Below are positions 1,894-18,886 of a stretch of DNA of 34,614 bases, piece by piece. The position numbers were made by a program, and so were the translations under genes. Below the pieces are notes generated by a model, which was not told the origin of the DNA, made no database searches, and saw only the letters and a list, made by a program, of their open reading frames with translations. Origin of the DNA: a virus; IMG/VR virus record IMGVR_UViG_3300027857_000044, positions 1 to 34,614 of that record; one strand, written 5' to 3'. Within the stretch, counting starts at the first letter, position 1. Every line of letters begins with the position of its first letter.

Positions 1894-2499
1894 ATGAGCG
1901 ACGGAATCGATGGCGAGGTCATCTTCCACCCCAACTTCAACCAGGACGGCCCGATGATGGTGCCGGCCCCCAAGAACCCCGACCGGATCAAGAAGTGGGG
2001 CCCCGACCGCGACGCTCAGGCGGCCAGGATGAAGGCCCTGGGCTACACCCTTCCGGAGATCTGCGAGGCGCTGGAGCTGGGTCCGGACACCCGCCGCGCC
2101 GGCGCGGCCATCCGCCGGGCGCTGACCAACATGGTCCGGTTCGCCCAGGACGAGATGCGGGTCATGGAGCTGATGAGCCTGGAGGAGCTGGAGGCTCAGG
2201 CCTGGCGCACCCTCCGGAACGCCCACGTGATCGTCTCCAACGGCCACATCGTTCACGACGAGACCGGCATGCCCCTCCAGGACGACCGCTACATCCTCGA
2301 GATGATCGACCGCGTCGTCCGCATCAAGGAGCGCCGGGCCAAGATGATGGGCCTGGACGCTCCCAGCCGCGCTGAGGTCATCTCCATCGACAGCATCGAC
2401 AGCGAGATCGCCAAGCTGGAGGCGGAGATCGAGCGCGCCAAGCCGGGCAAGAAGCCGGCCGACCCGCCCAAGCAGATCGAAGGCGGCCAGGAGGAGTAG
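1894..2499 (+). CDS. Terminase small subunit (TerS)
   Basis: 201 residues. TerS proteins form rings that recognise phage DNA and load the large subunit for packaging. Residues about 41-80 (AQAARMKALGYTLPEICEALELG through AAIRRALTN) read as a helix-turn-helix DNA-binding domain. The rest is helical, with an oligomerisation-type segment around residues 95-150 and a charged coiled coil near the C-terminus (SEIAKLEAEIERAK). I chose the ATG at 1894 because a very strong Shine-Dalgarno (GGAGGTGAG, 1882-1890) precedes it. In-frame upstream starts at 1789 and 1840 lie in the regulatory gap and lack one. The assignment rests on position next to TerL plus fold pattern. Confidence 0.75.
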   Translation: MSDGIDGEVIFHPNFNQDGPMMVPAPKNPDRIKKWGPDRDAQAARMKALGYTLPEICEALELGPDTRRAGAAIRRALTNMVRFAQDEMRVMELMSLEELEAQAWRTLRNAHVIVSNGHIVHDETGMPLQDDRYILEMIDRVVRIKERRAKMMGLDAPSRAEVISIDSIDSEIAKLEAEIERAKPGKKPADPPKQIEGGQEE

Positions 2500-4106
2500 T
2501 GGCGGACAGCCTGCTTGAGGTCAAGCTCGAGCGCCTGGCCTACCTTCGCAAGCTGCAGAAGGAGGCCGACCGCTTCAAGACGGGCGTGGCGAAGTACTAC
2601 AACGACCCGGTGGCCTTCGCCCACGACTGCATCGACTGGGGCAACTCCGGCGGCCTCACCGAGTACCAGCTTGACATCACCACGCTGCTGCAGAAGCACC
2701 ACCGCGTCGCCGTTCGTGGCCCCCACGGCCTGGGTAAGTCGACGATCAGCGCCTTCACCATCCTCTGGTTCGCGCTTACCAGGGACGCCTGTGGCGTCGA
2801 CTGGAAGGCGGTCTACACCGCCGGCGCCTGGCGGCAGCTGATCAACTATCTCAGCCCCGAGATCCACAAGTGGTCCAGCCGGATCAAGTGGGAGAAGGTC
2901 CGCGACCGGCCGTTCTCCAACGCTGAGCAGCTCAACCTGGCCCTCCGGCTCCAGTACGGCAGCGCCTTCGCGGCCGCAGCCAGCAACCCCGCTCTCATCG
3001 AGGGCGCGCACGCCGACAGCCTGCTGTTCATCTACGATGAGTCCAAGTCGATCAACGCCGGCACCTTCGACGCCTGTGAGGGTGCCTTCTCCGGTACCGG
3101 CGAGACGTTCGCGATGGCGCTGTCGACCCCGGGACCGCCGTCCGGCCGCTTCTACGACATCCACTCCAGGAAGCCGGGCTACGAGGACTGGCACCCGCGC
3201 CACGTGACGCTGGAAGAGGCCATGAAGGCCGGCCGGATCAGCGAGAAGTGGGCGGAGCAGCGCAAGCTGCAGTGGGGCGAGCAGTCGGCGCTGTACCAGA
3301 ACCGCGTTCTCGGCGAGTTCTACGCCGGCGACGAGGACAGCGTGGTGCCGCTCAGCTGGGTGGAGGCCGCCGTCGAGCGCTGGCACGAGTGGGAGAACCA
3401 GGGTCGGCCCGACCCGGGCAAGCCCAGGACCATCGGCGTCGACGTCGCTCGTGAGGGCTCGGACAAGACCTCCCTGGCCACCAGGGACGGCAACGTGCTC
3501 ATCGAGGTCAAGTCGTACAGCAAGAACGACACCATGACCACCGCTGGCAACGTCAAGGGCATCCTGGACGATGACCCGGAGCGCACCGCCATCATCGACG
3601 TCATCGGCATCGGCGCCGGCGTGTACGACCGCCTCCGGGAGCAGGGCTGCAAGGTCCAGGCGTTCAACGCCGCCGCTGGCAGCGGCAAGCGAGACCGCTC
3701 CAACGAGATGGGCTTCCAGAACACTCGCGCGGCCGCCTGGTGGAACATGCGAGAGCTGCTCGACCCCGCCTTCGGCTCCGACATCTGCCTGCCACCGGAT
3801 GATGACCTGCTCTCCGACCTTACCTCCCCGAAGGCTGGCGAGGTTCTCTCCGGTGGCAAGATCCGCATCGAGTCCAAGAAGGACATCAAGAAGCGGCTCG
3901 GTCGCTCCACCGACAAGGGTGACGCGGTCGTCCAGGCGTTCTGGACCGAGAAGGGCACCTGGCACGATGCCTACGGCACCATCACGTGCTCCGGCTGCAA
4001 GCGAGGGTACCTGCTCGTGGCCAACGGCACCCGTCGGTCCAACTGCCCGTTCTGTGGCACCAGCGCCATCGCCCCAATCGAACCAGGGATGGAGGAGGAA
4101 GAGTGA
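2499..4106 (+). CDS. Terminase large subunit (TerL) with C-terminal zinc ribbon
   Basis: 535 residues. This is the packaging motor: an N-terminal ATPase and a C-terminal RNase H-like nuclease that cuts concatemeric DNA. Visible motifs are Walker A GPHGLGKST (74-82), Walker B LLFIYDES (175-182, with E181 as catalytic carboxylate) and nuclease acidic residues D315 (GVDVAREGSDKT), D367 (IIDVIG) and D475 (KGDAV). After the nuclease there is an extra CxxC...CxxC zinc ribbon (C497, C500, C516, C519) and an acidic tail, not part of the core terminase fold. It starts at the GTG sharing one base with the TerS stop (TAGTG). Confidence 0.95.
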   Translation: MADSLLEVKLERLAYLRKLQKEADRFKTGVAKYYNDPVAFAHDCIDWGNSGGLTEYQLDITTLLQKHHRVAVRGPHGLGKSTISAFTILWFALTRDACGVDWKAVYTAGAWRQLINYLSPEIHKWSSRIKWEKVRDRPFSNAEQLNLALRLQYGSAFAAAASNPALIEGAHADSLLFIYDESKSINAGTFDACEGAFSGTGETFAMALSTPGPPSGRFYDIHSRKPGYEDWHPRHVTLEEAMKAGRISEKWAEQRKLQWGEQSALYQNRVLGEFYAGDEDSVVPLSWVEAAVERWHEWENQGRPDPGKPRTIGVDVAREGSDKTSLATRDGNVLIEVKSYSKNDTMTTAGNVKGILDDDPERTAIIDVIGIGAGVYDRLREQGCKVQAFNAAAGSGKRDRSNEMGFQNTRAAAWWNMRELLDPAFGSDICLPPDDDLLSDLTSPKAGEVLSGGKIRIESKKDIKKRLGRSTDKGDAVVQAFWTEKGTWHDAYGTITCSGCKRGYLLVANGTRRSNCPFCGTSAIAPIEPGMEEEE

Positions 4107-4495
4107 CGGTCCCCGTCCCGCAGATCCCTCTGCCGCTCCCCTGGGTCACCTTCTCCAACCCCGGCAGTCAGTGGTCGTACTCGTTCCAGGTTCAGAATGA
4201 TGACGGCACCCTGATGAACATCATCGGGAAGACCTTCGAGCTGGTCATCCGCACCGATCAGCGCACCAGCGGCACGCCGGCGGCCACGATCAACAGCACC
4301 AGCTCCACCGCCTCGGGAACGATCACGGTGAACACTGCAACGAGCACCGTGGTGGCGACGCTCAACCCGGTCGCCACCAGCGCGCTCGTCGCCAACACGA
4401 CCTACTCGCTGACCCTGTGGATGGATCCCGGCCTGTCGGACGCCACCGCGCTGGTCAACGGCTTCATGACGGTGAGGCCGGTGACGGCGGCATGA
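4103..4495 (+). CDS. Beta-sandwich structural protein (probable virion protein)
   Basis: 130 residues starting at the GTG that overlaps the TerL stop by 4 bases. The sequence is almost wholly Thr/Ser/Ala/Val-rich beta strand, with a pattern (GTLMNIIGKTFELVIRTD, later TYSLTLWM) like small immunoglobulin-like beta sandwiches on phage baseplates and fibres. There is no signal peptide or membrane segment. Together with the following genes it forms a set of fibre-like proteins placed unusually between terminase and portal. A head-fibre or adaptor role is plausible; I cannot assign it more closely. Confidence 0.6.
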   Translation: MTVPVPQIPLPLPWVTFSNPGSQWSYSFQVQNDDGTLMNIIGKTFELVIRTDQRTSGTPAATINSTSSTASGTITVNTATSTVVATLNPVATSALVANTTYSLTLWMDPGLSDATALVNGFMTVRPVTAA

Positions 4496-4782
4496 GACAG
4501 CGACCCAACTACCGCGAGATCCTCTCCAGCGCCGAGAAGGCCGCCGCCAAGGAGATCTTCGAGGGTGAGCTGGAGAACCGCTCAGCCTGCGTCTACTGCG
4601 CCGGCATCCACGCTCACGTGGCCAAGCTGGACGCCTACTGGCAGCCCTGTCCGAGGATCCGCCGCATCGAGCGGCATCCTGACGGCAGCATCCTGGTCCT
4701 GGAGTTCTGGCCGAACGGGGACTGGGAGCAGGAAGTGATCTTTCCGGACGACGTCTATGAGGACGAGGAGGTGGAGGAGTAA
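4492..4782 (+). CDS. Small Cys-containing acidic protein, unknown function
   Basis: 96 residues; ATG at 4492 overlaps the preceding stop (ATGA) and its own TAA overlaps the next ATG. Residues about 32-55 hold CVYCAGIHAHVA...PC, with Cys and His residues in metal-site-like spacing, followed by a short beta-rich stretch (GSILVLEFWPNGDWEQEVIF) and a strongly acidic end (DDVYEDEEVEE). This could be a small zinc-binding adaptor. No family is recognised. Confidence 0.6.
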   Translation: MRQRPNYREILSSAEKAAAKEIFEGELENRSACVYCAGIHAHVAKLDAYWQPCPRIRRIERHPDGSILVLEFWPNGDWEQEVIFPDDVYEDEEVEE

Positions 4783-5432
4783 TGGCCAACGTCATTGTCT
4801 CCTCCAACGGCCTCCAGGGCCAGCGTGGCTTCAGCTGGCTGAGTGGAGCCGGCGCGCCGACCGCCAACCAGGTCGGCTCCATCGACGGTGACTTCTATCT
4901 GGACACCACCAACGTCGGCTTCTACTACGGCCCGCGTTCCGGTGGCCTCTGGGGCACCCCGCACCCGTTCGGCAACAGCCTGAACGGTGTGCCGCTGATC
5001 AACATCACGGCCACCACCGACCCGGGCGTCAGCAACGACAACACCCAGGGGTACTCGGTCGGTTCCACCTGGGTGAACATCACCGCCGGCCGGGTGTTCT
5101 TCGCCATCAGCGTGGCCACCGGCGCGGCGGCCTGGGTGGTGCTCCCCACCCGTGGCTACCTGAGGCAGACGCCGACCACCACGTACAACATGACGGTTCT
5201 GGACCGCTACGTGTTTGCGAACGCCGTCTCAGTCGGCTTCGCGGTGAACCTGATCAGCTCCGCCACGGCCCCGAATGACGTCACGATCAAGAAGATCGAC
5301 GCCACCGCCAACCCGGTCACCGTCACTCCTCAGGCCGGCCAGACGATCGACGGGGCAGCCACGTACCTGCTGACGAGCCCCAACCAGTCGATCACCCTCG
5401 TCCCGAACGGGAGCGTCTGGTATGTCATATAG
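4782..5432 (+). CDS. Fibre-like virion protein with collagen-like/GDFYLD N-terminus
   Basis: 216 residues. The N-terminus (GLQGQRGFSWLSGAGAP, then GSIDGDFYLDTTNVGFYYGPRSGGLWG) is the kind of module found repeatedly in phage head and tail fibre proteins, where it connects trimeric stalks. The rest is beta-rich. The C-terminal part (TVLDRYVFANAVSVGFAVNLIS through QSITLVPNGSVWYVI) resembles the terminal domain of other phage fibres. Its place between terminase and portal favours a head-fibre or capsid-surface role, but a tail role is not excluded. Its 3' end overlaps the next gene by 11 bases in another frame. Confidence 0.65.
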   Translation: MANVIVSSNGLQGQRGFSWLSGAGAPTANQVGSIDGDFYLDTTNVGFYYGPRSGGLWGTPHPFGNSLNGVPLINITATTDPGVSNDNTQGYSVGSTWVNITAGRVFFAISVATGAAAWVVLPTRGYLRQTPTTTYNMTVLDRYVFANAVSVGFAVNLISSATAPNDVTIKKIDATANPVTVTPQAGQTIDGAATYLLTSPNQSITLVPNGSVWYVI

Positions 5433-6375
5433 CCCGATCACACAGTTCGCGGCGCTCTCCACCGGTGTTCTGACCGGTGGGACGATGACGATCGGCACGC
5501 TGCCCAACACGTTCAACGTCACCCAGACCAGCGCGTACATCGTGGATTGGCTCACCAATCCTGGTCATCCCTCCTACGTGCCAGTCACCATTCCAGCGCA
5601 GACGGTCACCATCTCGGGCGCTGCGGCCAACCGGGTTGTGAACTGGTGGGTGTCGGACATCAACGGCAACATCACCTCGCTCGCGACGCGCCCTACCGAC
5701 GCTCAGCGCCGCACCTCGATCCAGCTCGGGATCACCGGCTCAACGCCGCCATCCGGCAACATCTTCTCGCTTCAGGAACTGCCGGTCATTCTCCAGCAGA
5801 AGCAGTCCCAGTTCTACGACCTGATGTACAACGTGGGGCCGTTCTCCGCAACCGGGAACCTGATCTCCGGGAACGCCAACCTGACGTTCAGCAAGAGCGT
5901 GGGAACGTTTTTCGCGGCCTCGTTCGGATGGGGCAACGAGAATGGCGCCACGCCGCTCGACCCGCACGTGGTGACGGCCCCAGCCGAGAACCCGGCGCAG
6001 TTCCTGTACGCGCTTCAGACGATCAACTCGGAGACGACGACCCCGACCAGCGCCTTCGATCCGCTCAACTACGACGTGAACGGCGTGAAGACGTTGATTC
6101 CGGGTGGCACCGGCACCTCGGTGATCCACCGGGTGTGGCTGTTCGGCTCCGGCACGGTCGCGGACCAGATGATCGTGCAGTACGGGCAGACGATCTACGG
6201 TTCCCTGTCCGCCGCTCAGGCGGCGATCGGCAGCTCGGACCCGTTCATTCCGAACCCGGACTTCGTGGGCATTGGCGCCGTGTGCGCGTACATCGCTGCC
6301 ACCAAGTCCTGCACAGCACTGAACAACACCGGCTCGGCGGTCATCGCCCAGGCGTCCAAGTTCCCCCAGTTCTAG
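5422..6375 (+). CDS. Putative fibre / receptor-binding protein
   Basis: 317 residues, starting 11 bases before the end of the upstream gene. The protein is beta-rich throughout. The C-terminal segment (VIHRVWLFGSGTVADQMIVQYGQTIYGSLSAAQAAI, then NPDFVGIGAVCAYIAATKSC and the end ASKFPQF) matches from memory a C-terminal domain common in phage tail fibres, containing an IQYGQxxYxSxxxA core and ending near KFG or KFP. It is therefore probably an adhesin or part of a fibre complex with the preceding gene. Its location near the head genes is unusual for a receptor-binding protein. Confidence 0.6.
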   Translation: MSYSPITQFAALSTGVLTGGTMTIGTLPNTFNVTQTSAYIVDWLTNPGHPSYVPVTIPAQTVTISGAAANRVVNWWVSDINGNITSLATRPTDAQRRTSIQLGITGSTPPSGNIFSLQELPVILQQKQSQFYDLMYNVGPFSATGNLISGNANLTFSKSVGTFFAASFGWGNENGATPLDPHVVTAPAENPAQFLYALQTINSETTTPTSAFDPLNYDVNGVKTLIPGGTGTSVIHRVWLFGSGTVADQMIVQYGQTIYGSLSAAQAAIGSSDPFIPNPDFVGIGAVCAYIAATKSCTALNNTGSAVIAQASKFPQF

Positions 6376-6383
6376 GAGGACCC

Positions 6384-6752: not shown

Positions 6753-6785
6753 CCCACGGGCCGCCGCGCATCACCTGGAGAATCG

Positions 6786-7325
6786 ATGCGCACCACCCCC
6801 ATCAAGAGGCTCACCTCTCTCATCGCCGTCACCGCTCTCGCCGGTGTCGGCCTTACCCTCGCCACGTCCACGGCCGCCCACGCCGACACCATCAGCTCCT
6901 GCACCGGTCAGGTGCTCGCCAGCTGGAACCCCGGCCTCACCAATACCGCTCAGAACGAGCTCGTCTACGTGTACGGAGACTATCTCGCCTGTGTGGTCAA
7001 CGGCACCGCTGAGCAGGTCACGACCCACCTCACCAACGTGAGCTACAGCAACGTTTCCTGCACGTCGCTCGCCACGAGCGGCAGCGGGGACCTGACGATC
7101 TACTACCCGGATGGCAGCACCAGCCACGCGTCGGTGTCCACCACCATCAGCCTCAACCTGCTCGGTGAGGTGGTCCAGGTCGCCAGCGGGACCATCGACA
7201 CCGGCAGCTACGTCGGCAGCACCGTCACCGAGACGAACGTACTCGCCAATCTCAGCACCACCGCCTGCGCCAGCAGCAATGGTGTCCAGGGTGAATCCGG
7301 TGAGTCCGTTCTCGTCATGACGTGA
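6786..7325 (+). CDS. Secreted protein with signal peptide and four cysteines, unknown function
   Basis: 179 residues. The N-terminus is a clear Sec-type signal peptide: basic MRTTPIKR, a hydrophobic core over residues 9-29, and an AHA cleavage motif at 31-33 giving a mature start at D34. The mature part is beta-rich with four cysteines (C39, C69, C92, C161), enough for two disulfides outside the cell. Host-like secreted proteins of this style occur in actinobacteria. No lytic, protease or adhesion motif is seen. A GGAG ribosome site precedes the ATG. It is embedded between fibre genes and the portal, which is unusual. It might alter the host surface, block superinfection or be a virion-associated host-contact protein. 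All three are inference. Confidence 0.8.
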   Translation: MRTTPIKRLTSLIAVTALAGVGLTLATSTAAHADTISSCTGQVLASWNPGLTNTAQNELVYVYGDYLACVVNGTAEQVTTHLTNVSYSNVSCTSLATSGSGDLTIYYPDGSTSHASVSTTISLNLLGEVVQVASGTIDTGSYVGSTVTETNVLANLSTTACASSNGVQGESGESVLVMT

Positions 7326-7361
7326 TAATGTAACAGCTCACCAGGAAGGGGGTGGCCGGAG

Positions 7362-10322
7362 ATGCCACGCGGGTCGATTATCGGCGGTGCCAGGAACATC
7401 CCCGGCGGCGCCCGGCCCACCCCCGGCCCGCAGAACATCTACGCCGGCAACGTCTCACCGCTGCAGTCTCAGCTGGAGAGCGGCGGGGCCGGCTGGGCAC
7501 AGGCGTACCAGTCATACCTGCCGCGCTCGTCCAGGGACTTCACCGAGGGCGCCTTCGGGCCGCTGAGCCCGATCATCCCGACGCCGATCGACGCGCCGCC
7601 GCCCGGCTCAGAGTTCGCTGAGCCACGCACCCACGAGTACCAGGTCGGCTGGAACCTTCCGGTTGGCCAGCCTGGCACCGAGGGCATCAAGCTGGCGGAC
7701 TTCAACACCCTTCGCACCCTGGCGGACCTGTACTCGGTGGCCCGTGCGGCCATCCAGCTCCGCAAGGCGGAGATCCGCGGCATCGAGTGGGACGTGCTGC
7801 CCACCGTCGACGCGGCCAAGTCGATGCGCAACAGCCACGGCAAGATGAAGGACTTCGGCAGCCGCCGTGCGGAGGCCGTTCGCTTCTTCCGCCGGCCTGA
7901 CCCGGACTACTTCAGCTGGGACAGCTGGATCGACTCCGTCATGGAGGAGATCCTCGTCTTCGACGCGCTGTCGCTGCTCATGCGGCCGAAGTGGCTGAAG
8001 GGCCACGGCAAGGGCCTCCTTGGCAGTGACCTGGACAGCCTGAGCCTGATCAGCGGCCAGACCATCCGGCCACTGTTCGACCTCCACGGTGCCAGGCCGC
8101 GTCCGCCGGCCCCCGCGTACCAGCAGTATCTCTACGGCGTGCCTCGTTGTGACATCATGACGATGATCGACGAGCGCGACATCGAGAGTGGCAACCTGCG
8201 CGGCACGGAGATGGGCAAGTTCGACGTCGAGCAGCTGCTGTACCTGCCGATGGTGAACCGTCGCTGGACGCCGTACGGCTTCCCGCCCATCGAGCGTGCG
8301 CTGGTGCCGGTCATGTCCGGCCTGCAAAAGCAGGGCTTCCAGCTGGACTACTTCCGTGAGGGCACGGTCCCGGCCGTCTACATCTCCCCTGGTGGCGCCA
8401 ACGTCAACATGACGCCGAACCAGATCCGGGAGCTGCAGGACGCGCTGAACGCCATCGCGGGCGACCCGGCGTTCCACCACAAGATCATCGTTCTGCCGGC
8501 CGACTCGAAGGTGCACCCTCAGCGTCAGGCCGACCTGGCCGACGCCTTCGACGAGGTCGTCATGTCGCAGGTCTGCATGGCCTTCGACGTGCAGCCGATG
8601 GAGCTGGGCATCATGCCCAAGGTCTCCACCACGGTCACGCCGGGTGCCGCTCACCAGATGGGCAAGGCCACCCAGGGAATCCAGGAGCGCAAGGCGACCA
8701 AGCCGACGCTCATGTTCCTGGCGACGATCATGAACCGCATCCTCCAGGGCGTCTGTGGCCAGCCCGACATGCGGTTCGTCTTCGAGGGCCTGGAGGAGAA
8801 GGAGGACGAGGAGACCAAGACCAAGATGCTGGTCATGCAGGTCTCGTCTTCTCTCCGCTCCATCGACGAGGCCCGTCAGGAGCTGAACCTTCAGCCCTGG
8901 GGTCTCCCGGAGACCACCGACCCCGGCTGGGCCACGCCCGGCAACGGCTGGATTCCGCTGGCGCAGGCCGTTCAGGCTCACGCCACCGGCTCTCAGGTCG
9001 GTCCGGAGTTCGAGCTGCCGGCCGGCACCGCGCCGGCTCAGCAGACGGGTGCCATGACACCGCCGCCGGGCACCGCCCCAGCTGGTGGCGTCGCTGGCGC
9101 TCCCGCCAAGCCTGCCGCACCTGCGGCTGGGGCCGCGAAGCCGGCCGCCGGCGCGGCAAAGCCGGCGGCCAAGCCGGCGGCGAAGCCCGCCGCCAAGCCG
9201 GCCGCTGGCGCCCAAGCCAAGCCCAGCACTCCGGGTGAGTCCGCCGCCCAGGGAGCCACCGCCAAGAAGCCGGCCGCCAAGCCGGCCACCAAGGCGGAGG
9301 AGCCGACGATCGTTCGTCAGCTGGTTGACGTGGAGCGCACCAAGGCCATCCTCTCTGAGATGGACGCCCTCGGGCGCCATCTCAAGAAGGGTCGGCAGCT
9401 GGACAGCTGGGAGACCCGGCACATCACCCGGCTGGAGCTGGGGATGGTCAGCCACCAGCTGGCGCTCGGGCTCGACCCGGTGGAGGCGGTGAAGGCGGTC
9501 GCTCAGCGGCGTCTGGTCAACATGGATGGCCAGATCTACTGGGAGGACTACGTCCCGATCAGCAACGCCCAGGGCGGTGGCGGTCGGGTGCCGACGCCTC
9601 ACGATGAGGACGGCAAGGAGTACCAGAACCCGGTCGACCGTCCCTTCGATGATGGCCGTCTTCCTCCGGGTGGCAAGGCCGACTCCACGCCACCGCGCTG
9701 GGAGCCGAACCTGAACCACCCCGGTACCGGCAGCTCCACGCAGAAGAGCCACGAGTTCGGTCCAGGTGCGGCGGCGTATCAGCAGATGCTTCACAACTAC
9801 CCGCCGGACGCCATCTCCTGGATGCACGACGCGGAGTGGATGGGCCCCACCCACGTGCCATTGAGCAAGATCGACTTCGACTCGGTCCAGCACTGGGCGG
9901 CGCATCACCAGATGCACCGGGTTCAGCACTTCGCTGACGAGATCGCGGCCGGTCACGACGTCAAGCCGGCCATCGTGGTCAAGGGTGGCAACGACGACCG
10001 GTACAAGGTCGTCGATGGGCACCACCGCACCCTGGCCTACCAGCATCTCGGTCTGCCGGTTCAGGCCTACGTCGGCCTGGTCGGTGATGACGACCGTTGG
10101 ATGGAGACCCACAGCTCGCAGTTCCACCAGGGCGACGACCCTGAGAACAAGCGGCACAAGGTCACCCAGGAGTCGGTTGACTACCGGGAGTCCAGCGTTC
10201 CCGGCAAGAGCTGCGCCACGTGTTCCATGTTCAGGGCACCCCACGGGTGCACCCTGGTCAAGGGCACCATCTACAGCGATGACGTCTGTGATGAGTGGTA
10301 CCCAGCGAAGGAGAACGGCTGA
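7362..10322 (+). CDS. Portal protein fused to ParB-like domain and Cys4 C-terminus
   Basis: 986 residues, about twice the usual portal length. Residues 1 to about 560 are the portal, the dodecameric gateway for DNA in the capsid vertex; typical segments are TLRTLADLYSVARAAIQLRKAEIRGIEWDV (split near residues 113-143) and the KQGFQLDYFREGTVP region. Residues about 580-650 are an Ala/Pro/Lys-rich linker. A helical part follows, then residues about 832-900 form a ParB/sulfiredoxin-like fold with the motif VVDGHHRTLAY (DGHHR at 885-889). Residues 939-986 form a C4 cluster (C951, C954, C963, C976) of the type often ending phage portal or protease proteins, with pattern CxxC...C...CDxW. It is the first gene after a 36-base gap with an AAGGGGG ribosome site. 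Confidence 0.9.
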   Translation: MPRGSIIGGARNIPGGARPTPGPQNIYAGNVSPLQSQLESGGAGWAQAYQSYLPRSSRDFTEGAFGPLSPIIPTPIDAPPPGSEFAEPRTHEYQVGWNLPVGQPGTEGIKLADFNTLRTLADLYSVARAAIQLRKAEIRGIEWDVLPTVDAAKSMRNSHGKMKDFGSRRAEAVRFFRRPDPDYFSWDSWIDSVMEEILVFDALSLLMRPKWLKGHGKGLLGSDLDSLSLISGQTIRPLFDLHGARPRPPAPAYQQYLYGVPRCDIMTMIDERDIESGNLRGTEMGKFDVEQLLYLPMVNRRWTPYGFPPIERALVPVMSGLQKQGFQLDYFREGTVPAVYISPGGANVNMTPNQIRELQDALNAIAGDPAFHHKIIVLPADSKVHPQRQADLADAFDEVVMSQVCMAFDVQPMELGIMPKVSTTVTPGAAHQMGKATQGIQERKATKPTLMFLATIMNRILQGVCGQPDMRFVFEGLEEKEDEETKTKMLVMQVSSSLRSIDEARQELNLQPWGLPETTDPGWATPGNGWIPLAQAVQAHATGSQVGPEFELPAGTAPAQQTGAMTPPPGTAPAGGVAGAPAKPAAPAAGAAKPAAGAAKPAAKPAAKPAAKPAAGAQAKPSTPGESAAQGATAKKPAAKPATKAEEPTIVRQLVDVERTKAILSEMDALGRHLKKGRQLDSWETRHITRLELGMVSHQLALGLDPVEAVKAVAQRRLVNMDGQIYWEDYVPISNAQGGGGRVPTPHDEDGKEYQNPVDRPFDDGRLPPGGKADSTPPRWEPNLNHPGTGSSTQKSHEFGPGAAAYQQMLHNYPPDAISWMHDAEWMGPTHVPLSKIDFDSVQHWAAHHQMHRVQHFADEIAAGHDVKPAIVVKGGNDDRYKVVDGHHRTLAYQHLGLPVQAYVGLVGDDDRWMETHSSQFHQGDDPENKRHKVTQESVDYRESSVPGKSCATCSMFRAPHGCTLVKGTIYSDDVCDEWYPAKENG
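9104..9306 (+). repeat. Low-complexity Ala/Pro/Lys-rich linker repeat within the portal gene
   Basis: The DNA repeats variants of GCC AAG CCG GCC, encoding repeated AAKPA/AKPAA units (about residues 582-648). The protein stretch is basic, proline-rich and resembles histone H1 tails, so it is probably a flexible tether that might contact DNA. Such repeats are prone to length change by recombination or slippage. Confidence 0.8.
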
Positions 10323-11251: not shown

Positions 11252-11351
11252 GCGGTCTCCATCAGAGGCTGTTACCAATTGAGAACAGGGTACCAGACAC
11301 TGGCACGACCGGCCAACACAGCCCGTGCTACGAAAAAGACAATGGAGCTAT
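11252..11351. other. Non-coding gap between the HNH gene and the protease gene
   Basis: About 100 bases with relatively low GC at the HNH end. The only supported element is the GGAG Shine-Dalgarno at 11344-11347 for the downstream protease. No intrinsic terminator, tRNA or clear intron boundary can be seen. It probably marks the edge of the inserted endonuclease segment. Confidence 0.4.
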
Positions 11352-14300
11352 ATGGCTGCGACGCTTGGCGCACCTGCGTCCGTGGACAGCGGGCTTGTGC
11401 ACATGAGCTTCCCCATCGAGAAGACCGAGACCACAGCCGATGGTGACCTGATCGTCTACGGCAAGGCCACCGACGGCTCTGTGGACTCCGACGAGCAGAT
11501 CGTCGACCCCACGTTCTCCGGCAAGGCGATCCAGGAGTGGCTCGCCACCGGCGGCAACGTCCGCGTCCAGCACAACGCTCAGCGTGACCCGGCTGGCGTC
11601 GGCATCGAGGCCAACACCGGCCCCGACGGTGAGACCTGGGTCAAGTCCCTGGTCGTGGAGCCGGGTGCCAAGACCCTGGTCAAGGCCGGCGCGCTGCGTG
11701 CCTACTCCGTGGGCATCGCTCGACCGAAGATCGTCCGCGACAACGTGGCCAGGGGTGGCCGCATCGTCGACGGCATCATCGTCGAGATCAGCCTGGTCGA
11801 CCGGCCAGCCAACAAGAACTGCGGCATCCAGTTGGTGAAGTCCGCGAGCGACGGCACCCCGGAGCTCAGCGGCAAGGTCACCTTCCACGAGAGCCTTGTG
11901 GAGAGCAAGAGCGCGGGCCTGATCGACATGGACGAGCTGGCTCGTCGGGTCGTGGAGAAGAACGCTCAGACCACCATCACCAAGACCGTCGGCAAGACCG
12001 GCAACGCCTTCAGCCCGGCCGACCTGGCCAAGCTCCTGGAGCACCGCGAGGCCGCCGAGAAGCGCCAGATGGACCCGAACGTCGGCGGTGGGGTGGATCG
12101 GGACAAGATCCCGGCCGCTGACTTCGCTGGCCGTGACCGCAGCTTCCCGATCGTGACGCCGGGTGACGTCAGTGACGCCGCCAGCTCGATCGGCCGCGCG
12201 GGCAGCAGCAACTACAGCTCCGACGAGCTGCGTCGCCGCATCACCAGCATCGCTCGTCGCAAGGGCCCGTCCTTCGTGTCGGAGCTTCCCGAGTCCTGGA
12301 AGGCGGATCTCGCCATGGAGCTGATCGCCAAGGGCGACGTCAGCCCGGATGACGACATGGACGAGGCCGACGAGGGCGACGCTCCCGAGAAGCCGGCCAA
12401 GAAGGCTGGCAAGCCGGCCTTCAGCGGCGCCGCCAAGCCGTTCGGCTCCAAGGACGGCGAGGACGACGAGAAGGACGGCGACGCGAAGGACGCCAAGAAG
12501 GCGTTCGACGACAGCGAGGACGAGCACGTCCCCAAGGACGACGAGGCCAAGCCGGACACCACCAAGTCTGGTGGCAAGACCTGCCCCGGCTGCAAGGCCG
12601 GCTACGACGCGGACTCCAAGCTCCGTCGCTGCACCGAGTGCAACCGCAAGCTGCCGATGGCTCCCAAGAGCGGCAAGGCTGAGGTCGAGAAGAAGGCCAA
12701 GGTCATGTGCGCCGGCTGCGGTGCCAACGTGGACGCGAAGCACAGCTTCTGCCCGGAGTGCGGCAAGAGCCTCTCCGGTGCCAAGCCGTCCACCATGAAG
12801 AACCACAAGTTCACCTGTCTGACCTGCGGCAACGAGCCGCTGGACAAGGGTGAGAAGTTCTGCCCCAAGTGTGGCACTCAGAACCCGGGATACCTTCCGA
12901 TGGCCGATGCGCAGCTGAAGATCGAGAAGGGCAAGCCGGTTCCCGGTGCTGGCGTCGTCGGCGCTGGTGCCTCTGACATCGAGCCGGTGCCCGCCCACCG
13001 TGAGCCGGACGGCGAGGCGATCGAAGAGTTCGAGCACAGCGCTGGTCTTCCGACCGTTCCGGACGCCAGCGTCAAGACCGTCGACTCGGCTGAGTTCGAG
13101 GCGGTCAGGGCTGAGGCGTTCAAGAGCATCGGCGTCGCCTACGAGGTGGGTGCGCTCCACGACGCGCTCTGCTCCGCCTTCTGCCCGGGTGACGTCGTCA
13201 AGACCCACCCGAGCTACCGCCTGGAGAACCTGGACGTCAACGTCTGGGCTCAGGAGGCGCTGAAGGCCGCCGCGACCGCCCCGCTCGAGGAGGCCGGCAA
13301 GGCCACCCAGATCTGGCAGCACGCGGAGACCATCAAGTCCAGCGAGCCGGGCATGATCTCGGACATCCGTCAGGAGCTCCACAAGGAGTACACGGACGGC
13401 GCCAAGGGTCCGGGCTCCTTCCCGACGCCGACGGAGATCAACCCGACCAGCTACCGCCGTGGGCTGCTCACCGGTGATCACGCCGCGCCGTCGCCGGGCC
13501 ACGACGGCCCGAACACGCACGCGGTGCCGACCAGTCACATCTGCGCGGATGACTTCACCCGTGGCCCGCTGACGGCCGGCCAGGCCGCCGACAGCCCGTC
13601 CAACAAGGGTCAGGACATCGTTGCCGCGCCGTCGGTTCCCGGCGAGCCGACCAGGGTGTACTACACCACCGGCATGCGGGACAAGGCCAAGTCGGCGATG
13701 GCGGCCATGCACGACCACATCGCCCAGACGTTCCCGGACCTGTGCCCGAACGTCAACAACGTGAACCACGACGGTGCGGCCTCCAGCCGTCCGGTCCCGG
13801 TTCCGGTGCACGGTGCGCTGAAGTCTGAGACCGTCGAGGTGGAGGTCAAGGCCGCTGAGCCGGTCGCCACCGACACCACCATGGCCGAGGCGGCGAAGGC
13901 GGCCAAGAAGGCGCTCAAGAGCCTGAACCAGGCGCGTAAGTCTCTGGGTCTCGCTCCGTTCACCACTGACGTTCTCGTCGACGGGCAGTCGCTCGACGCG
14001 GCCGTCCAGAAGGCCGCGGCGGTGCCGCAGGTCCAGAAGGACGAGACGCTGACGATGCTCACCGGCCTTCAGCAGCAGCTGGACGCCATCTGCAAGCGTC
14101 TCGACGACCAGAACACCGTCACCACCAAGCTTCAGGCGGATGTCGAGCAGCTCGGCAACCTGCCTGACCCCGCGGTCGCCGCCTGGAAGGGCGCGGCCGT
14201 CACGTCTAACCCCAGCACCGACAACATCCACAAGACGGCCGGCCTCCCGGTGGGAGCCGCAACCGTTGCTGAGGCCGCGGAGCGGCAGAAGCTCGCGATG

Positions 14301-14399
14301 ATCAGTGCCCTCCAGATGCAGATCCGGAACAGCTCGGACCCGGCTGAGCGTGAGGCTTGCTGGAACCAGCTCGTCAAGATGACCGGCTACGCGGTCTAA
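11352..14399 (+). CDS. Capsid maturation protease fused to three zinc ribbons and a scaffold-like C-terminus
   Basis: 1015 residues. The first about 190 residues are an HK97-type (S78) prohead protease: catalytic-like H74 in NVRVQHNAQ and S119 in RAYSVGI, followed by GIIVEISLVDRPAN. A segment with DFAGRDRSFPIVTPGDVSDA (about 255-275) is common downstream of such proteases. An acidic/Lys-rich stretch leads to three CxxC...CxxC ribbons (C411/414/427/430; C453/456/467/470; C489/492/504/507). The rest contains helices, an EALKAAATAP region and a coiled-coil-like end (LQQQLDAICKRLDDQNTVTTKLQADVEQL) that could act as scaffold. ATG 11352 has GGAG 4 bases upstream; an in-frame GTG at 11325 and ATG at 11403 are alternatives. 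Confidence 0.85.
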   Translation: MAATLGAPASVDSGLVHMSFPIEKTETTADGDLIVYGKATDGSVDSDEQIVDPTFSGKAIQEWLATGGNVRVQHNAQRDPAGVGIEANTGPDGETWVKSLVVEPGAKTLVKAGALRAYSVGIARPKIVRDNVARGGRIVDGIIVEISLVDRPANKNCGIQLVKSASDGTPELSGKVTFHESLVESKSAGLIDMDELARRVVEKNAQTTITKTVGKTGNAFSPADLAKLLEHREAAEKRQMDPNVGGGVDRDKIPAADFAGRDRSFPIVTPGDVSDAASSIGRAGSSNYSSDELRRRITSIARRKGPSFVSELPESWKADLAMELIAKGDVSPDDDMDEADEGDAPEKPAKKAGKPAFSGAAKPFGSKDGEDDEKDGDAKDAKKAFDDSEDEHVPKDDEAKPDTTKSGGKTCPGCKAGYDADSKLRRCTECNRKLPMAPKSGKAEVEKKAKVMCAGCGANVDAKHSFCPECGKSLSGAKPSTMKNHKFTCLTCGNEPLDKGEKFCPKCGTQNPGYLPMADAQLKIEKGKPVPGAGVVGAGASDIEPVPAHREPDGEAIEEFEHSAGLPTVPDASVKTVDSAEFEAVRAEAFKSIGVAYEVGALHDALCSAFCPGDVVKTHPSYRLENLDVNVWAQEALKAAATAPLEEAGKATQIWQHAETIKSSEPGMISDIRQELHKEYTDGAKGPGSFPTPTEINPTSYRRGLLTGDHAAPSPGHDGPNTHAVPTSHICADDFTRGPLTAGQAADSPSNKGQDIVAAPSVPGEPTRVYYTTGMRDKAKSAMAAMHDHIAQTFPDLCPNVNNVNHDGAASSRPVPVPVHGALKSETVEVEVKAAEPVATDTTMAEAAKAAKKALKSLNQARKSLGLAPFTTDVLVDGQSLDAAVQKAAAVPQVQKDETLTMLTGLQQQLDAICKRLDDQNTVTTKLQADVEQLGNLPDPAVAAWKGAAVTSNPSTDNIHKTAGLPVGAATVAEAAERQKLAMISALQMQIRNSSDPAEREACWNQLVKMTGYAV

Positions 14400-14428
14400 C
14401 GCTCGCCAACTACCTCAGGAAGGCCATC

Positions 14429-16255
14429 ATGGCTGACATTCTCGGCTCCGAGGTCGCCCCGACCGCAGAGTCTCCGCTGAAGGACGCGGCCGCATCCGCG
14501 AACCGTTACAAGAGCACCGGCGACATGCTCTCTGCGCGCATGCCGTTCATGGTCAAGGGCGCCGGCTACGCCGGCACCGGCAACACGCCGCTCTCGGACC
14601 AGATGCAGATCACGACCAAGGCCCACCAGGCCACCCTGGACCTCCGCACGGAGACCCACCGTGGCTACGCGGACCGCGCCAGCGTCGTGAAGAGCCTCAA
14701 CCCGTCGTTCCTGGACAACTTCGGCTACCTCAAGGCCGCGCTGTCCATGCCGACCCTGGGTGAGCAGATCTCGCAGGTCTTTGGTGGCGCGGCCGCCCCT
14801 GACCTGGCCCGTAGCTTCACCGCCGGCAACCTGGGCATCGGCACCGTCAGCGGTCTCGTGCCGTTCGACCTGCTGGCGCCGTCCCGGCTGATCTACCCGA
14901 TGTACACGGTGTTCCGCAACAAGCTGCCGCGTCCGGCCGGCCAGGGCACCAGCCGCATCGAGCGCGTGTTCACCGGCATCTCCGGCACCCAGACGGGTGG
15001 TCAGAGCGTCCTGGACATCGCGATCAGCGAGCTCGTCCAGAACAACGGCTCTCTGTCCAGCTCCACCTGGCCGCTGAACATCCCGGGCACCGGCTCTCAG
15101 ACCGAGGTCCAGCTCAACGTCCCGTACCGCTTCTTCGGCCTCACCGAGTCCCTGAGCTGGCTGGCTCAGTTCGCGGGCCAGGGCTTCGAGGACATCTCCG
15201 CGCTCGCCAACCTCATCCTCCTCCAGGAGATGATGCTGGGCGAGGAGTACATGATGATCGCGGGCACCAGCACCACGCTGGCCGCGCCGACCGTCGTGTC
15301 GCTCACCGCGCGCACCGCCGGTTCCAACGAGACCACGGTTGGCGCCAACGCCAACTTCACCGTCTTCGTCACCGCGACGAACTACTACGGTGAGACCGTC
15401 TCGGTCCAGAGCTCCACCATCGCCACCTCCTCTGGCCAGGTCGTCGACCTCGTCATCGGCCCCTCCGCCGGTGCGCTGTCGTACAACGTGTACGTCAGCA
15501 CCAACGGCTCCCCGGCCGTCGCGAACGCCTTCCGTGTCGCGACCGGCGTCGGTGGCGTCAAGTTCACCGTCCAGGGCACCCTCCCGGGCTCCGGTGCGAC
15601 CCCGCCGACCACGGACACCTCCACGGGTAAGAACACCCGCATGGAGGGCATCATCCCGACCCTGGCCGGCAAGTCCGCCTCGGGCGGCATCTACCCGTCC
15701 GGGTGGCAGGGTGGCTACTACAACGGCGCCGTCGGCACCCACCTCAGCTACAACGTGATCTACACCGCGCTGCAGCAGCTGTGGGACGGCAACACCGGCT
15801 CCAACAACCCGGGTGCGTTCCGCGCCGACCCGGCTGAGATCGTCGGTGAGGGTGGCGACATCATGCGCCTCTCCAACGACGTCATCAGCCAGGGTGCGGC
15901 CACGAACTACCGCCTGTTCCTGGACCAGAGCGAGGTCCCCGGCGTTCGCGTCGGTGCCGCGGTCTCCGAGTTCCAGAACCCGATCACCCGCTCCGTCCTG
16001 AAGATGGTCGTCCACCCGTGGCTGACCCAGGGTACCGCGGCTCTGATGACCTACCAGCTCCCGCAGACGTGGTCCAACGTGGCCAACGCCTGGGAGATGA
16101 CCACGGTCCAGGACTACGTGTCCATCGCGTGGCCGGTCATCGACGCGACCTTCCGGTACTCCATCTTCCTGTACGGCGCCATGGTTGCTCACGCGCCGCA
16201 GTACAGCGGCCTGCTCCAGGGCCTCCAGGTCTCGGACACCACGCCGTTCAGCTAA
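14429..16255 (+). CDS. Major capsid protein with inserted beta domain
   Basis: 608 residues, starting at the ATG preceded by AGGAAGG (14417-14423). It follows protease/scaffold and precedes small capsid proteins, the expected position for the major shell protein, presumed HK97 fold. The N-terminal helix-rich part and the C-terminal part (FRADPAEIVGEGGDIMRLSNDVIS, then SVLKMVVHPWLTQGTAALMTYQLPQTW) are the shell core. Residues about 285-395 form an extra beta domain (PTVVSLTARTAGSNETTVG through GALSYNVYVSTNG) like a fibronectin/Ig fold, which would project from the capsid. A strong hairpin follows the stop. Conservation of the exact insertion boundary is not testable here. Confidence 0.88.
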   Translation: MADILGSEVAPTAESPLKDAAASANRYKSTGDMLSARMPFMVKGAGYAGTGNTPLSDQMQITTKAHQATLDLRTETHRGYADRASVVKSLNPSFLDNFGYLKAALSMPTLGEQISQVFGGAAAPDLARSFTAGNLGIGTVSGLVPFDLLAPSRLIYPMYTVFRNKLPRPAGQGTSRIERVFTGISGTQTGGQSVLDIAISELVQNNGSLSSSTWPLNIPGTGSQTEVQLNVPYRFFGLTESLSWLAQFAGQGFEDISALANLILLQEMMLGEEYMMIAGTSTTLAAPTVVSLTARTAGSNETTVGANANFTVFVTATNYYGETVSVQSSTIATSSGQVVDLVIGPSAGALSYNVYVSTNGSPAVANAFRVATGVGGVKFTVQGTLPGSGATPPTTDTSTGKNTRMEGIIPTLAGKSASGGIYPSGWQGGYYNGAVGTHLSYNVIYTALQQLWDGNTGSNNPGAFRADPAEIVGEGGDIMRLSNDVISQGAATNYRLFLDQSEVPGVRVGAAVSEFQNPITRSVLKMVVHPWLTQGTAALMTYQLPQTWSNVANAWEMTTVQDYVSIAWPVIDATFRYSIFLYGAMVAHAPQYSGLLQGLQVSDTTPFS

Positions 16256-16261
16256 TCGACA

Positions 16262-16287
16262 GCGGCCCCTCCGCCTGGAGGGGCCGC
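16262..16287 (+). promoter_or_regulatory. Strong hairpin after the major capsid gene
   Basis: Perfect 11-bp arms, GCGGCCCCTCC and GGAGGGGCCGC, with a 4-base loop GCCT. No T-tract follows (CGTACCGAAAGG), so it is not a standard intrinsic terminator. It may stabilise or process the abundant capsid mRNA, or cause partial termination. Confidence 0.8.
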
Positions 16288-16309
16288 CGTACCGAAAGGA
16301 TAGGGCAAC

Positions 16310-16639
16310 ATGCCCATCTTCGCTAACTCGGCGGCGACCCAGGCCACGGCCTCCGTGGGCAACACCGCCACTCAGATCTTCAACGTCAGCGCCTCCGGCA
16401 TCCCGGCCGGCGCCGTCATCGGTGACCTCATCGTGGAGAACACCGGCTCGGTCACGATGTTCGTCGGCCAGTCCGCCGTCACCGCCGTCACCGGTCTTCG
16501 TGTGCCGGCTGGTGGCAGCGTCACGCTCACCGGTTTCGCCGCCACCCAGGCTGTGACCACCGGTAACGTCTACGGTATCACCGCCAGCGGCACCACGAGC
16601 GCGCTCGTCGGGCCGGCCACGGTCGAGTACTTCGTCTAA
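16310..16639 (+). CDS. Probable capsid decoration protein
   Basis: 109 residues, ATG after AAAGGATAGGG. Beta-rich, with no Cys: repeated ITQIFNVSASGIPAGAV, DLIVENTGSVTMFVGQSAVTAVTGLRVPAGGSVTLTG. It lies immediately after the major capsid gene between two strong hairpins, the usual place for a head decoration (capsid-stabilising) protein made in large amounts. Assignment is by position and composition; a short tail-fibre-like adaptor is a less likely alternative. Confidence 0.65.
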   Translation: MPIFANSAATQATASVGNTATQIFNVSASGIPAGAVIGDLIVENTGSVTMFVGQSAVTAVTGLRVPAGGSVTLTGFAATQAVTTGNVYGITASGTTSALVGPATVEYFV

Positions 16640-16647
16640 GCACCTTC

Positions 16648-16673
16648 GTGGGGCCGTCGCAAGGCGGCCCCAC
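16648..16673 (+). promoter_or_regulatory. Second hairpin, after the probable decoration gene
   Basis: Nine-base perfect arms GTGGGGCCG and CGGCCCCAC enclose TCGCAAGG. No T-run follows (ACCTCGAACAAAGG). Like the hairpin at 16262, it sits in a short gap in the middle of the head genes and may set the relative mRNA levels of these genes. Confidence 0.75.
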
Positions 16674-16696
16674 ACCTCGAACAAAGGAAGGTAGCC

Positions 16697-17431
16697 ATGC
16701 CTGTTGGCGGCTCCGACTTCGGCACCCTGCCCCCGGCAGGTACGCGCCTCGATCTCGCGAACGTCTGGGCGGACGGCCAGTGGCAGTTCCGTCCCGGTAG
16801 CTCGGTCGCGTTCTCGAGTGGTGCTTCTCTTCCCGCGCTGACCACCGCGCCGACCGCACCGACCGGTGGTGCGATCCTGTACTCCAGCAGTGGCGGCGTC
16901 CTCTCGTTCGTCAGCTCCACCGGTCAGACCGCCGTCGTCGGCGGTGTGACGCAGTCGCAGACCAGCACGGTCACGGTTGCGAACAGCAACACCGCCACCT
17001 CGCTCCAGTCGTACACCGTTCCCGCCAACGACCCGGCGGCCGGCGCGATCTACAACATCTACGGCTACGGCGTCTACAGCGACACCGGCACGCCGACGCT
17101 GACCTTCACCCTGTACTGGGGTGGCGTCGGTGGCACGTCGCTGGCCACCTTCACCAGTGCCGCTCTCGGCTCTGGTGTCACCAACGTCCCGTTCGTGTAC
17201 GAGGCCACGCTGACGTTCCGGTCCACCACCTCGGCGGTCGCCAACCTCAACATGAACCTGGGCACCACGGCTGCCGGCGCGTCCGCGAGCTACGTGGCGA
17301 CCCCGTCCGCCCCGACGACCGGTCTCACCACGACCGCCGCCTCGGCGCTGACGGTCGGCGTCACCTGGTCCGCCGCCTCCGCCTCCAACACCATCTCCCT
17401 GCTCGGCGGCTTTGTGGAGCGAGTGGCGTAA
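16697..17431 (+). CDS. Capsid-surface or head-fibre-like protein
   Basis: 244 residues; the ATG follows AAAGGAAGG. The N-terminal about 90 residues read GTLPPAGTRLDLANVWADGQW and then PTGGAILYSSSGGVLSFVSSTGQTAVVG, a stalk or attachment-like segment. The C-terminal about 150 residues form a jelly-roll-like beta domain (STVTVANSNTATSLQSYTVPANDPAAG, IYGYGVYSDTGTPTLTFTLYWGG). No Cys. Its position in the head block suggests a decoration or head-fibre subunit. The stop overlaps the next ATG (TAATG). Confidence 0.65.
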   Translation: MPVGGSDFGTLPPAGTRLDLANVWADGQWQFRPGSSVAFSSGASLPALTTAPTAPTGGAILYSSSGGVLSFVSSTGQTAVVGGVTQSQTSTVTVANSNTATSLQSYTVPANDPAAGAIYNIYGYGVYSDTGTPTLTFTLYWGGVGGTSLATFTSAALGSGVTNVPFVYEATLTFRSTTSAVANLNMNLGTTAAGASASYVATPSAPTTGLTTTAASALTVGVTWSAASASNTISLLGGFVERVA

Positions 17432-17712
17432 TGATCACTCCCATCCCGGGCAGCGTGACCAACAGCGCTGCCAAGCTGTGCACCGTGCCGCCTGGGGTGG
17501 GCTCGGTGACCATCACGGTGGCCGCAGCCAACACCACGATCGTGTACATCGGCGTGGTCAGCACCACCACCGCGACCAACGGGGCAGCGATCGTTGGTGG
17601 CTCCAGCGTCACGATTCCGATGTACCCTGGCTCCAAGGGTACCGACCTGTACGCGATCGCAAACGTGGCCGGCCCCACCCCCGTCGGTGTTTTCATCTCT
17701 ACCGCTCAGTAG
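17431..17712 (+). CDS. Small beta-rich capsid accessory protein
   Basis: 93 residues translated from the overlapping ATG. The pattern is a short beta sandwich (KLCTVPPGVGSVTITVAAANTTIVYIGVVSTTT, then SSVTIPMYPGSKGTDLYAIANVAG). It resembles a shortened version of small phage decoration proteins. It lies directly after the larger fibre-like protein and before the zinc-binding genes; a partner role with 16697-17431 is plausible. Confidence 0.6.
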   Translation: MITPIPGSVTNSAAKLCTVPPGVGSVTITVAAANTTIVYIGVVSTTTATNGAAIVGGSSVTIPMYPGSKGTDLYAIANVAGPTPVGVFISTAQ

Positions 17713-17720
17713 GAGACGCG

Positions 17721-17996
17721 ATGCCCAAGGTTCAGCTCCCCCCTGGCTGCTATGGCTTCGACTGCAAGGACGGCACCAAGTACACCGCCAGGAAGCCTGG
17801 TGGAACGATCGAGGTGTCGGACCAGCACGCCAAGTCGATCAACGAGGGTCAGTTCGGTGACACCGGCCTGGTCTCCGCCAAGGGGGCGCTGTCCTTCGGA
17901 ACCAGGAAGGGCCGGCTCTGCCCGTCCTGCAACACCATCTGGAACGTGTGGACCAAGGTCTGCCACAAGTGCGACGTCGAGACCACCGAGGTCTAG
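17721..17996 (+). CDS. Zinc-ribbon head-region protein
   Basis: 91 residues; start ATG follows AGGAG. The N-terminus (VQLPPGCYGFDCKDGTKYTARKPGGTIEVSDQHAKSINEG) is beta-like, similar to small N-terminal domains of phage connector accessories. The C-terminus has CPSCNTIWNVWTKVCHKC (C67, C70, C81, C84), a textbook zinc-ribbon arrangement. It could bind DNA or another capsid protein. No enzyme motif is seen. Confidence 0.7.
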   Translation: MPKVQLPPGCYGFDCKDGTKYTARKPGGTIEVSDQHAKSINEGQFGDTGLVSAKGALSFGTRKGRLCPSCNTIWNVWTKVCHKCDVETTEV

Positions 17997-18008
17997 GCCA
18001 CACCGATC

Positions 18009-18024
18009 GAAAGAGGTTGCGATG
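18009..18024 (+). promoter_or_regulatory. Translation start leader, nearly repeated at 22630
   Basis: GAAAGAGGTTGCGATG including the ATG. The same 16 bases with one change (C for T at the ninth base) precede the tail chaperone gene at 22643. AAGAGG is the Shine-Dalgarno. The match may be a shared optimised ribosome site or a relic of recombination. Confidence 0.5.
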
Positions 18025-18675
18025 ACCGTTTACGCCCGCAGTGACATCGCTGCGGTTTCCATTTCCCCCGCGCATGGCGGTTGTGGCCAGAGTCACAGTC
18101 GACCGGCACCCGGTGGAGACCCGGTCCCGATCTGGGGCCTGACCTGCCACGGCGGGTGTGAGGACGTGCTCCGTGCTGACAGCATGTGGTCGAGCACCCA
18201 CACCACCATCCCGGAGACCCCCGACGAGGTCCTCCACCGCGAGGACATGGAGCGTCGCGGCGCCCTGGAGCAGCAGGAGTCGACGGCCAAGGCTCTCATG
18301 GAGCTGGCCAAGCTCGGCACCCTGCCCGAGGTGCTCGCCACGATGCTCAAGCACACCATGACCGGCGGCCAGCTGGAGAGGGCGCCCATCGTCCAGCTGT
18401 GCATGAACGGTCACCAGAACCAGGAGGACGCTCGCTTCTGCTACCAGTGCGGGGCGAACATGTCCGAGGGGGTCAAGACGGACCGTGGGAAGGCTCTCAC
18501 GCCTGCTGAGAGCCCCGTCGACGTCATCAAGGGTGTTCCTACCCCGGAGGACGAGAGCGTGCCCGAGGACAACCTCGAGAGCCTTCCGATCGGCACCCTG
18601 CGTGCCATGGTGAAGGAGCGTGGTCACTCGACGGCCGGCACCAAGAACACTCTCATCGCGCTTCTGCGCAGCTAA
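18022..18675 (+). CDS. Zinc-binding protein with C-terminal SAP DNA-binding motif
   Basis: 217 residues. The N-terminus has Cys/His residues (C21, H24, C42, C46) that could form one metal site. The central part is helical (about 68-120). A second site reads LCMNGHQNQEDARFCYQCG (C127, H131, C140, C143). Residues about 185-217 (LESLPIGTLRAMVKERGHSTAGTKNTLIALLRS) match the SAP motif, a helix-extended-helix that binds DNA. Such proteins sit near connectors in phage head modules. A role in DNA ends, portal plugging or packaging is possible. The ATG at 18022 is preceded by AAGAGG. Confidence 0.75.
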   Translation: MTVYARSDIAAVSISPAHGGCGQSHSRPAPGGDPVPIWGLTCHGGCEDVLRADSMWSSTHTTIPETPDEVLHREDMERRGALEQQESTAKALMELAKLGTLPEVLATMLKHTMTGGQLERAPIVQLCMNGHQNQEDARFCYQCGANMSEGVKTDRGKALTPAESPVDVIKGVPTPEDESVPEDNLESLPIGTLRAMVKERGHSTAGTKNTLIALLRS

Positions 18676-18694
18676 ACGACACCACGGGGACGCG

Positions 18695-18886
18695 ATGCGC
18701 GGACGGAAGACCTGCCGGCTCTGTGCCACCCGCAAGAGCGTCCCCGTGGGCGTCTGCGCCAATTGCAACGACCAGATGTGCGGCAAGCACATCACCTGGC
18801 ACCTGAATGAATGGTGGTGCTCCAAGTGCGTGAGGAAGGAGGGGTCAGATGGCGTCGCCGCTCGTGACACCCGGGATGATCACTAA
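18695..18886 (+). CDS. Very small multi-zinc (Cys/His-rich) protein
   Basis: 63 residues with seven cysteines (C7, C10, C21, C24, C29, C42, C45) and H32, H36: three CxxC pairs plus CGKH. This is enough for two zinc ions in a cross-braced or tandem arrangement over residues 7-45. The 3' part overlaps the next gene by 38 bases in another frame, so the region from codon 52 on is read twice. The Cys-rich part lies upstream of the overlap. Shine-Dalgarno-like GGGGA lies before the ATG. Function unknown; an adaptor between connector proteins or DNA is possible. Confidence 0.65.
   Translation: MRGRKTCRLCATRKSVPVGVCANCNDQMCGKHITWHLNEWWCSKCVRKEGSDGVAARDTRDDH

Follow-up and report, generated by a model that had tools for sequence, protein, structure and literature searches.

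Cysteine clusters in a head module from an uncultured lineage of tailed phages: a ribbon-like TerL tail that accompanies the capsid and a HiPIP-like domain in the portal

The window, i.e. the whole stretch of DNA analysed here, was a 34.6-kb virus record from IMG/VR (IMGVR_UViG_3300027857_000044, 34,614 nucleotides) with a GC content of ~61–68%. Genes for the packaging, the head and the tail of a tailed phage lie on its plus strand (Table 1), and several of the packaging and head proteins contain clusters of cysteines, among which the C-terminal tail of TerL and the C-terminus of the portal protein are the main subjects of this work. Open reading frames were called mechanically and the capsid was assigned to records by profile match; because viral contigs are often incomplete, the absence of a feature from a record was treated as weak evidence. 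The nearest relatives of the window were uncultured contigs, and the group was mostly sampled from soil. A search with the major capsid protein gave 80 loci, several of them on records of 104–135 kb. The best cultured capsid match was Thermoanaerobacterium phage THSA-485A (~25% identity), and phage MMB025 has an annotated major head protein that matched at ~24% identity. Because the small genes g4492, g18022 and g18695 had no tblastn match among 50,697 phage records and the capsid was only ~25% identical to its best cultured match, the existence of close cultured relatives was rejected. No prophage was found via the capsid in the first genome scan. The scan with TerL gave 13 loci (in Streptomyces, Chloroflexota, Calditrichota, Spirochaetes and Gaiellales), with no ribbon among those classified.

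It was found that the packaging and head proteins contained 15 CxxC pairs in 5,523 residues, compared with a mean of 1.5 and a maximum of 6 in 2,000 per-protein shuffles (0.8 when pooled); this count left out g17721, which adds two pairs. The connector and tail proteins contained none in 4,940 residues. All clusters named in an initial annotation made from the sequence were recovered at about the positions given there, and the CxxC count together with the alignments described below supported its view that they are concentrated in packaging and head genes and deeply conserved. A coding artefact was rejected, because the cysteine positions were kept across independent contigs. Five cultured phages with related portals had one CxxC each in the head module, located in the portal gene, which was MuF-like where the sequence was read. 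The head module of Streptomyces phage TurkishDelight had seven, in small side genes; three small Cys-rich genes with six CxxC lie there between the portal and the protease (L155:8151-8998).

Table 1. Genes and domains of the packaging and head region in the window.
Feature	Coordinates	Strand	Basis
g65, C-terminal Cys4 site C167-x2-C170-x15-C186-x4-C191, upstream of TerS	65..763	+	Cys alignment
Gene in TerS position, no Cys site	1789..2499	+	phrog_645 (annotated RNase E there)
TerL, window-type core	2499..4106	+	phrog_2 E=1.1e-34; phrog_5902 E=3.6e-25; relatives L002-L058
TerL tail with putative zinc ribbon W-x2-AYG-x3-C-x2-C-x15-C-P-x-C, residues 485-535	3951..4103	+	Invariant Cys
g4492, CCHC site C-x2-C-x3-H-x12-C	4492..4782	+	Homolog alignment
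Portal with long C-terminal extension	7362..10322	+	PF04860 E=1.2e-10; phrog_2662 E=1.9e-42
Portal ParB/Srx-like domain, residues 796-938	9747..10175	+	phrog_1033 E=1.3e-7
HiPIP-like domain, portal C-terminus (C951, C954, C963, C976)	10143..10319	+	Profile A4 vs PDB
Head maturation protease fused to long scaffold-like region	11325..14399	+	phrog_3270, phrog_9427, phrog_80 (head maturation protease); phrog_21715 E=3e-15
Three Cys4 zinc-ribbon modules of protease, residues 420-516	12582..12872	+	DZR PF12773 E=1.3e-9, above gathering
Major capsid protein, no Cys	14438..16255	+	phrog_13692 (function unnamed there); used for lineage tree
g17721, 91 residues, ribbon C-x2-C-x9-C-x2-C (CPSC...CHKC)	17721..17996	+	Homolog comparison
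g18022, N-terminal H/C site, C-terminal half ribbon, weak SAP match	18022..18675	+	Pfam, homologs
g18695, 63-residue putative cross-brace zinc finger, ligands C7 C10 C21 C24 C29 H32 C42 C45	18695..18886	+	Alignment, model

The TerL tail follows the nuclease domain and extends the C-terminal arm. It consists of two CxxC knuckles (C497-x2-C500 and C516-x2-C519) around a variable loop, and all four cysteines were kept in 9/9 aligned sequences though the loop varied. Because the tail gave only sub-threshold matches to curated models (DUF5817 and Zn_ribbon_FGT1_1), it is termed ribbon-like by its pattern and placed in no curated family. Its position is that of known or proposed docking segments: the C-terminal domain of T4 TerL docks on the portal, and an arm after the nuclease domain of D6E TerL was proposed to do the same (PMC5727402). 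No comparable zinc tail on a TerL was found in the literature searched, which here and below means open-licence papers. TerL frames of ~800–1030 residues with an interrupted or shifted TerL match were also seen (L027, L044, L005, L020, L045, L203 (G020), L200 (G023) and L204 (G010)); they are possible inteins or fusions.

Two TerL cores were found to accompany the capsid of this lineage, the window type and a second type matching Terminase_6N/6C and phrog_979. The cores were 21–30% identical to each other and their tails 29–56% identical. On the capsid tree, which was built quickly and contains some long branches, the core type changed 8 times, and at least 6 of these changes were forced by well-supported branches. 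The ribbon was nevertheless present in all readable lineage TerLs of both cores but one, and the TerLs of a distant clade carried two ribbons in tandem. Among 63 TerLs with the window-type core, 14 had the ribbon and 49 did not; the lineage capsid was found in none of the ribbonless records where it was searched, and a ribbonless clade was the sister of the window's ribbon clade. With the second core, the ribbon was present in 7/8 records with the capsid, and most TerLs in records without the capsid ended ribbonless. The TerL of TurkishDelight, with a core 53% identical, also lacked the ribbon. The mean identity of tails between the two cores was 0.43 vs 0.35 for motif-keeping shuffles; as this excess was modest, no transfer of the tail as such from one core to the other is claimed.

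Since the tail lies in the docking position and tracks the head and not the core, it is best read as a docking part for this head, and its retention while the motor was swapped suggests that it probably serves to fit the motor to this type of head. Most likely, the putative zinc ribbon in which TerL ends would dock the packaging motor on the portal or prohead of the lineage, and every TerL serving this head would require it. Several observations speak against such a role. In L217 the capsid is present and the ribbon cysteines of TerL are lost. Second-core TerLs with the ribbon also occurred on contigs in which no capsid was found, although nearly all of these contigs were fragments of <14 kb and the capsid may lie off the contig. 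The window-type ribbon TerLs fell into only two groups, indicating that part of the pattern is common descent, and ribbon and capsid might go together through a common gene pool or host instead of through contact. Common descent, which accounts for part of the co-occurrence within the capsid lineage, also enters a rather doubtful explanation in which all these sites simply hold small domains together and share no function, being enriched through small-protein stabilisation and shared ancestry. The sites do fall into different fold classes, as expected from it, but it leaves unexplained why the tail is found on both cores with this capsid and is absent in the closest same-core clade with other heads.

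The cluster at the C-terminus of the portal has the spacing C951-x2-C954-x8-C963-x12-C976. It had been listed among the zinc-ribbon sites, a reading that did not hold: a profile of 24 sequences (A4), in which the four cysteines were invariant, matched only HiPIPs in the PDB (6xyv PioC, E=2.5e-6; 3h31, E=8.5e-6). By sequence, the portal cluster is thus a member of the [4Fe-4S] HiPIP family, and a zinc ribbon at every site of the module was rejected on these matches. A standalone homolog matched PF01355 at E=0.002, below gathering, and the window portal itself had no Pfam match to PF01355. The AlphaFold2 model of the region was of low confidence (pLDDT 49). The domain was found in 18/39 lineage records searched whole and was missing from the L060 portal, which is 84% identical to that of the window. 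In the near group it is fused to the portal, usually after the ParB-like domain, which is present in most lineage portals; members of the distant group mostly have it as a gene of its own, placed between portal and protease. Of 69 HiPIP loci in viral contigs, 35 shared one reading frame with a portal and/or a ParB-like domain. No connection between HiPIP and phage portals was found in the literature searched.

Other arrangements were observed around the portals of relatives and in the window. In Bordetella phage PBb001 (L187:7024-8207), a HiPIP-like hypothetical gene lies right after a ParB-like nuclease gene, a pairing as in the portal tail of the window. Two relatives have portals with a C-terminal NUDIX domain (L068:1635-6005, E=8.7e-17; L125:844-5988, E=9e-13), and the L125 portal also has a MuF-like match and a C2H2-like finger. 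A small conserved CLSCGC gene, not seen in the window, lies between the portal and the protease in several relatives (L153:7056-7220, L072:9122-9298, L062:13624-13860 and L116:5461-5781). In the window, the gene at 6786-7325, between g4492 and the portal, has an apparent signal peptide, which is unusual in a head module.

The portal domain would be an optional module, putatively holding a [4Fe-4S] cluster, and either structural or redox-active. Together with the ParB-like domain it could be structural, or it could resemble cargo; fusions of portal and MuF proteins to enzyme domains were described as injected polyvalent proteins (PMC5512222; the term iron-sulfur is absent from that paper). That the C-terminal modules of these portals (MuF in some relatives, ParB-like, HiPIP and NUDIX) are polyvalent-type cargo delivered into the host is possible, though not our preferred explanation. 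In keeping with it are these described fusions, the occurrence of NUDIX and MuF on the same portal in relatives, the optional nature of HiPIP and its place beside the ParB-like gene in phage PBb001. However, a portal is a ring subunit that normally remains at the virion vertex, and no sign of portal cleavage or ejection was found in this analysis. Cargo delivery is limited to the portal modules and is compatible with docking by the TerL tail.

The protease ribbons lie in the scaffold-like region, outside the protease domain. They are formed by six CxxC pairs (C420/423, 436/439, 462/465, 476/479, 498/501 and 513/516, numbered from the GTG at 11325; the initial annotation, using a downstream start, gave the same stretch as C411-C507), and residues 462-517 scored 38.5 bits against PF12773 (gathering 27.3). 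Relatives had from 0 to 8 such pairs, and in a distant clade the protease had no ribbon at all. The ribbons probably act as assembly contacts that would leave with the scaffold. The profile search against zinc-ribbon and HiPIP-like families that the initial annotation had proposed was positive for a zinc-ribbon family in the protease, where DZR matched above gathering, but it gave only sub-threshold matches for TerL and pointed to HiPIP in the portal.

Of the other small genes with cysteine sites, g65 kept its four cysteines in 6/6 homologs and had no confident Pfam or PHROG family; the gene at 1789..2499 is taken from its position to be the small terminase. In g4492 all four ligands were kept in all homologs listed; this conserved site had been counted among the CxxC-type clusters, but it has only one CxxC, the rest being a histidine and a further cysteine. 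Homologs of g17721 were present in dozens of lineage loci, and the ribbon cysteines were kept in those displayed. In g18022 (H18, C21, H25, C42, C46; C127, C140, C143), the N-terminal ligands were kept in 31/31 sequences and the C-terminal ribbon in 17/31; its Pfam matches, Zn_Ribbon_1 and SAP, were both below gathering. The gene g18695 adjoins likely head-tail connector genes, and its eight ligands were all kept in 29/29 sequences. Its predicted structure (pLDDT 80.8) best matched Rab-effector and FYVE fingers, with Z from 6.3 to 5.1, values at which the similarity may lie in the arrangement alone; LIM, RING and PHD fingers scored lower, which does not exclude them, and the matches included the piggyBac cross-brace DNA-binding finger. 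The sequence match to rabphilin was only E=0.0065. As the FYVE signature motifs (basic RKHHCR and WxxD) were absent from the g18695 sequences by eye, the protein was not classed as FYVE.

Nucleic-acid binding is common among zinc ribbons, and the zinc sites of TerL and the small proteins might bind DNA, in packaging initiation, cleavage or early gene control, and not protein. The weak SAP match in g18022 and the piggyBac finger among the matches of g18695 agree with such a function. It was considered unlikely, as the TerL ribbon tracks the capsid lineage and not the TerL core, which DNA binding alone does not predict.

The initial annotation had further proposed that TerL, the portal, the protease and connector-region proteins share one zinc-ribbon network, perhaps to order assembly. 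The concentration of the clusters in head genes, with none in tail genes, and the conservation of several sites across the lineage would be expected from such a network. On the capsid tree, HiPIP changed 10 times, the protease ribbons 5 times and g18695 6 times, and no co-variation of the three was detected in independent pairs, although only 5–9 pairs were available, too few for significance. There was accordingly no sign of one co-varying network. The portal site is moreover HiPIP-like by sequence and not a zinc ribbon, and the TerL ribbon stays where the protease has no ribbon. A single network is thus very improbable. What stood of the earlier interpretation is that the sites are real, conserved and concentrated in the head module and that there is evidence linking TerL to the head lineage; the one zinc network was not supported.

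As a whole, the explanation that we favour, with moderate confidence, is that the window holds the head genes of an uncultured lineage of tailed phages in which several distinct small domains that bind metal serve as protein adaptors. The TerL ribbon would be its head-matched portal-docking tail, and the metal-site pieces would have the head lineage in common instead of one co-varying network. A bolder version appeared considerably less probable: the TerL ribbon as a portable plug that specifies the prohead, motors of different origin being recruited repeatedly only with the plug, and the portal HiPIP as a redox-active [4Fe-4S] domain at the packaging vertex. The way in which a packaging motor identifies the prohead that belongs to it has been established for only a few phages, and the repeated alternation of cores under a kept zinc tail resembles a natural domain-swap experiment that points to a recognition element. 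If the portal domain does carry an iron-sulfur cluster, the packaging vertex would have a cofactor that is new there.

Compared with known systems, the TerL tail resembles the docking segments of T4 gp17 and D6E in following the last helix of the nuclease domain, where portal contact was shown or proposed, but differs in ending in a putative Cys4 zinc ribbon. The portal domain shares with the HiPIP family (PioC of Rhodopseudomonas palustris; PF01355) the C-x2-C-x8-C-x12-C spacing and an aromatic residue after the last cysteine; unlike members of that family, it sits in a phage portal or, in relatives, in a gene between portal and protease. As in the polyvalent MuF/portal fusions (PMC5512222), the window portal is fused to a ParB-like domain and others, but it has no MuF match in Pfam and carries HiPIP. 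The protease ribbons score as DZR members (PF12773), but they lie within the scaffold-like part of a head maturation protease and vary in CxxC number. Finally, g18695 has eight ligands in the CxxC-CxxC-CxxH-CxxC order of FYVE/rabphilin-type fingers, and its model aligns with VPS27 FYVE (Z 5.7, root-mean-square deviation 2.0 over 52); unlike those fingers, it is encoded by a phage head gene and lacks the FYVE signature.

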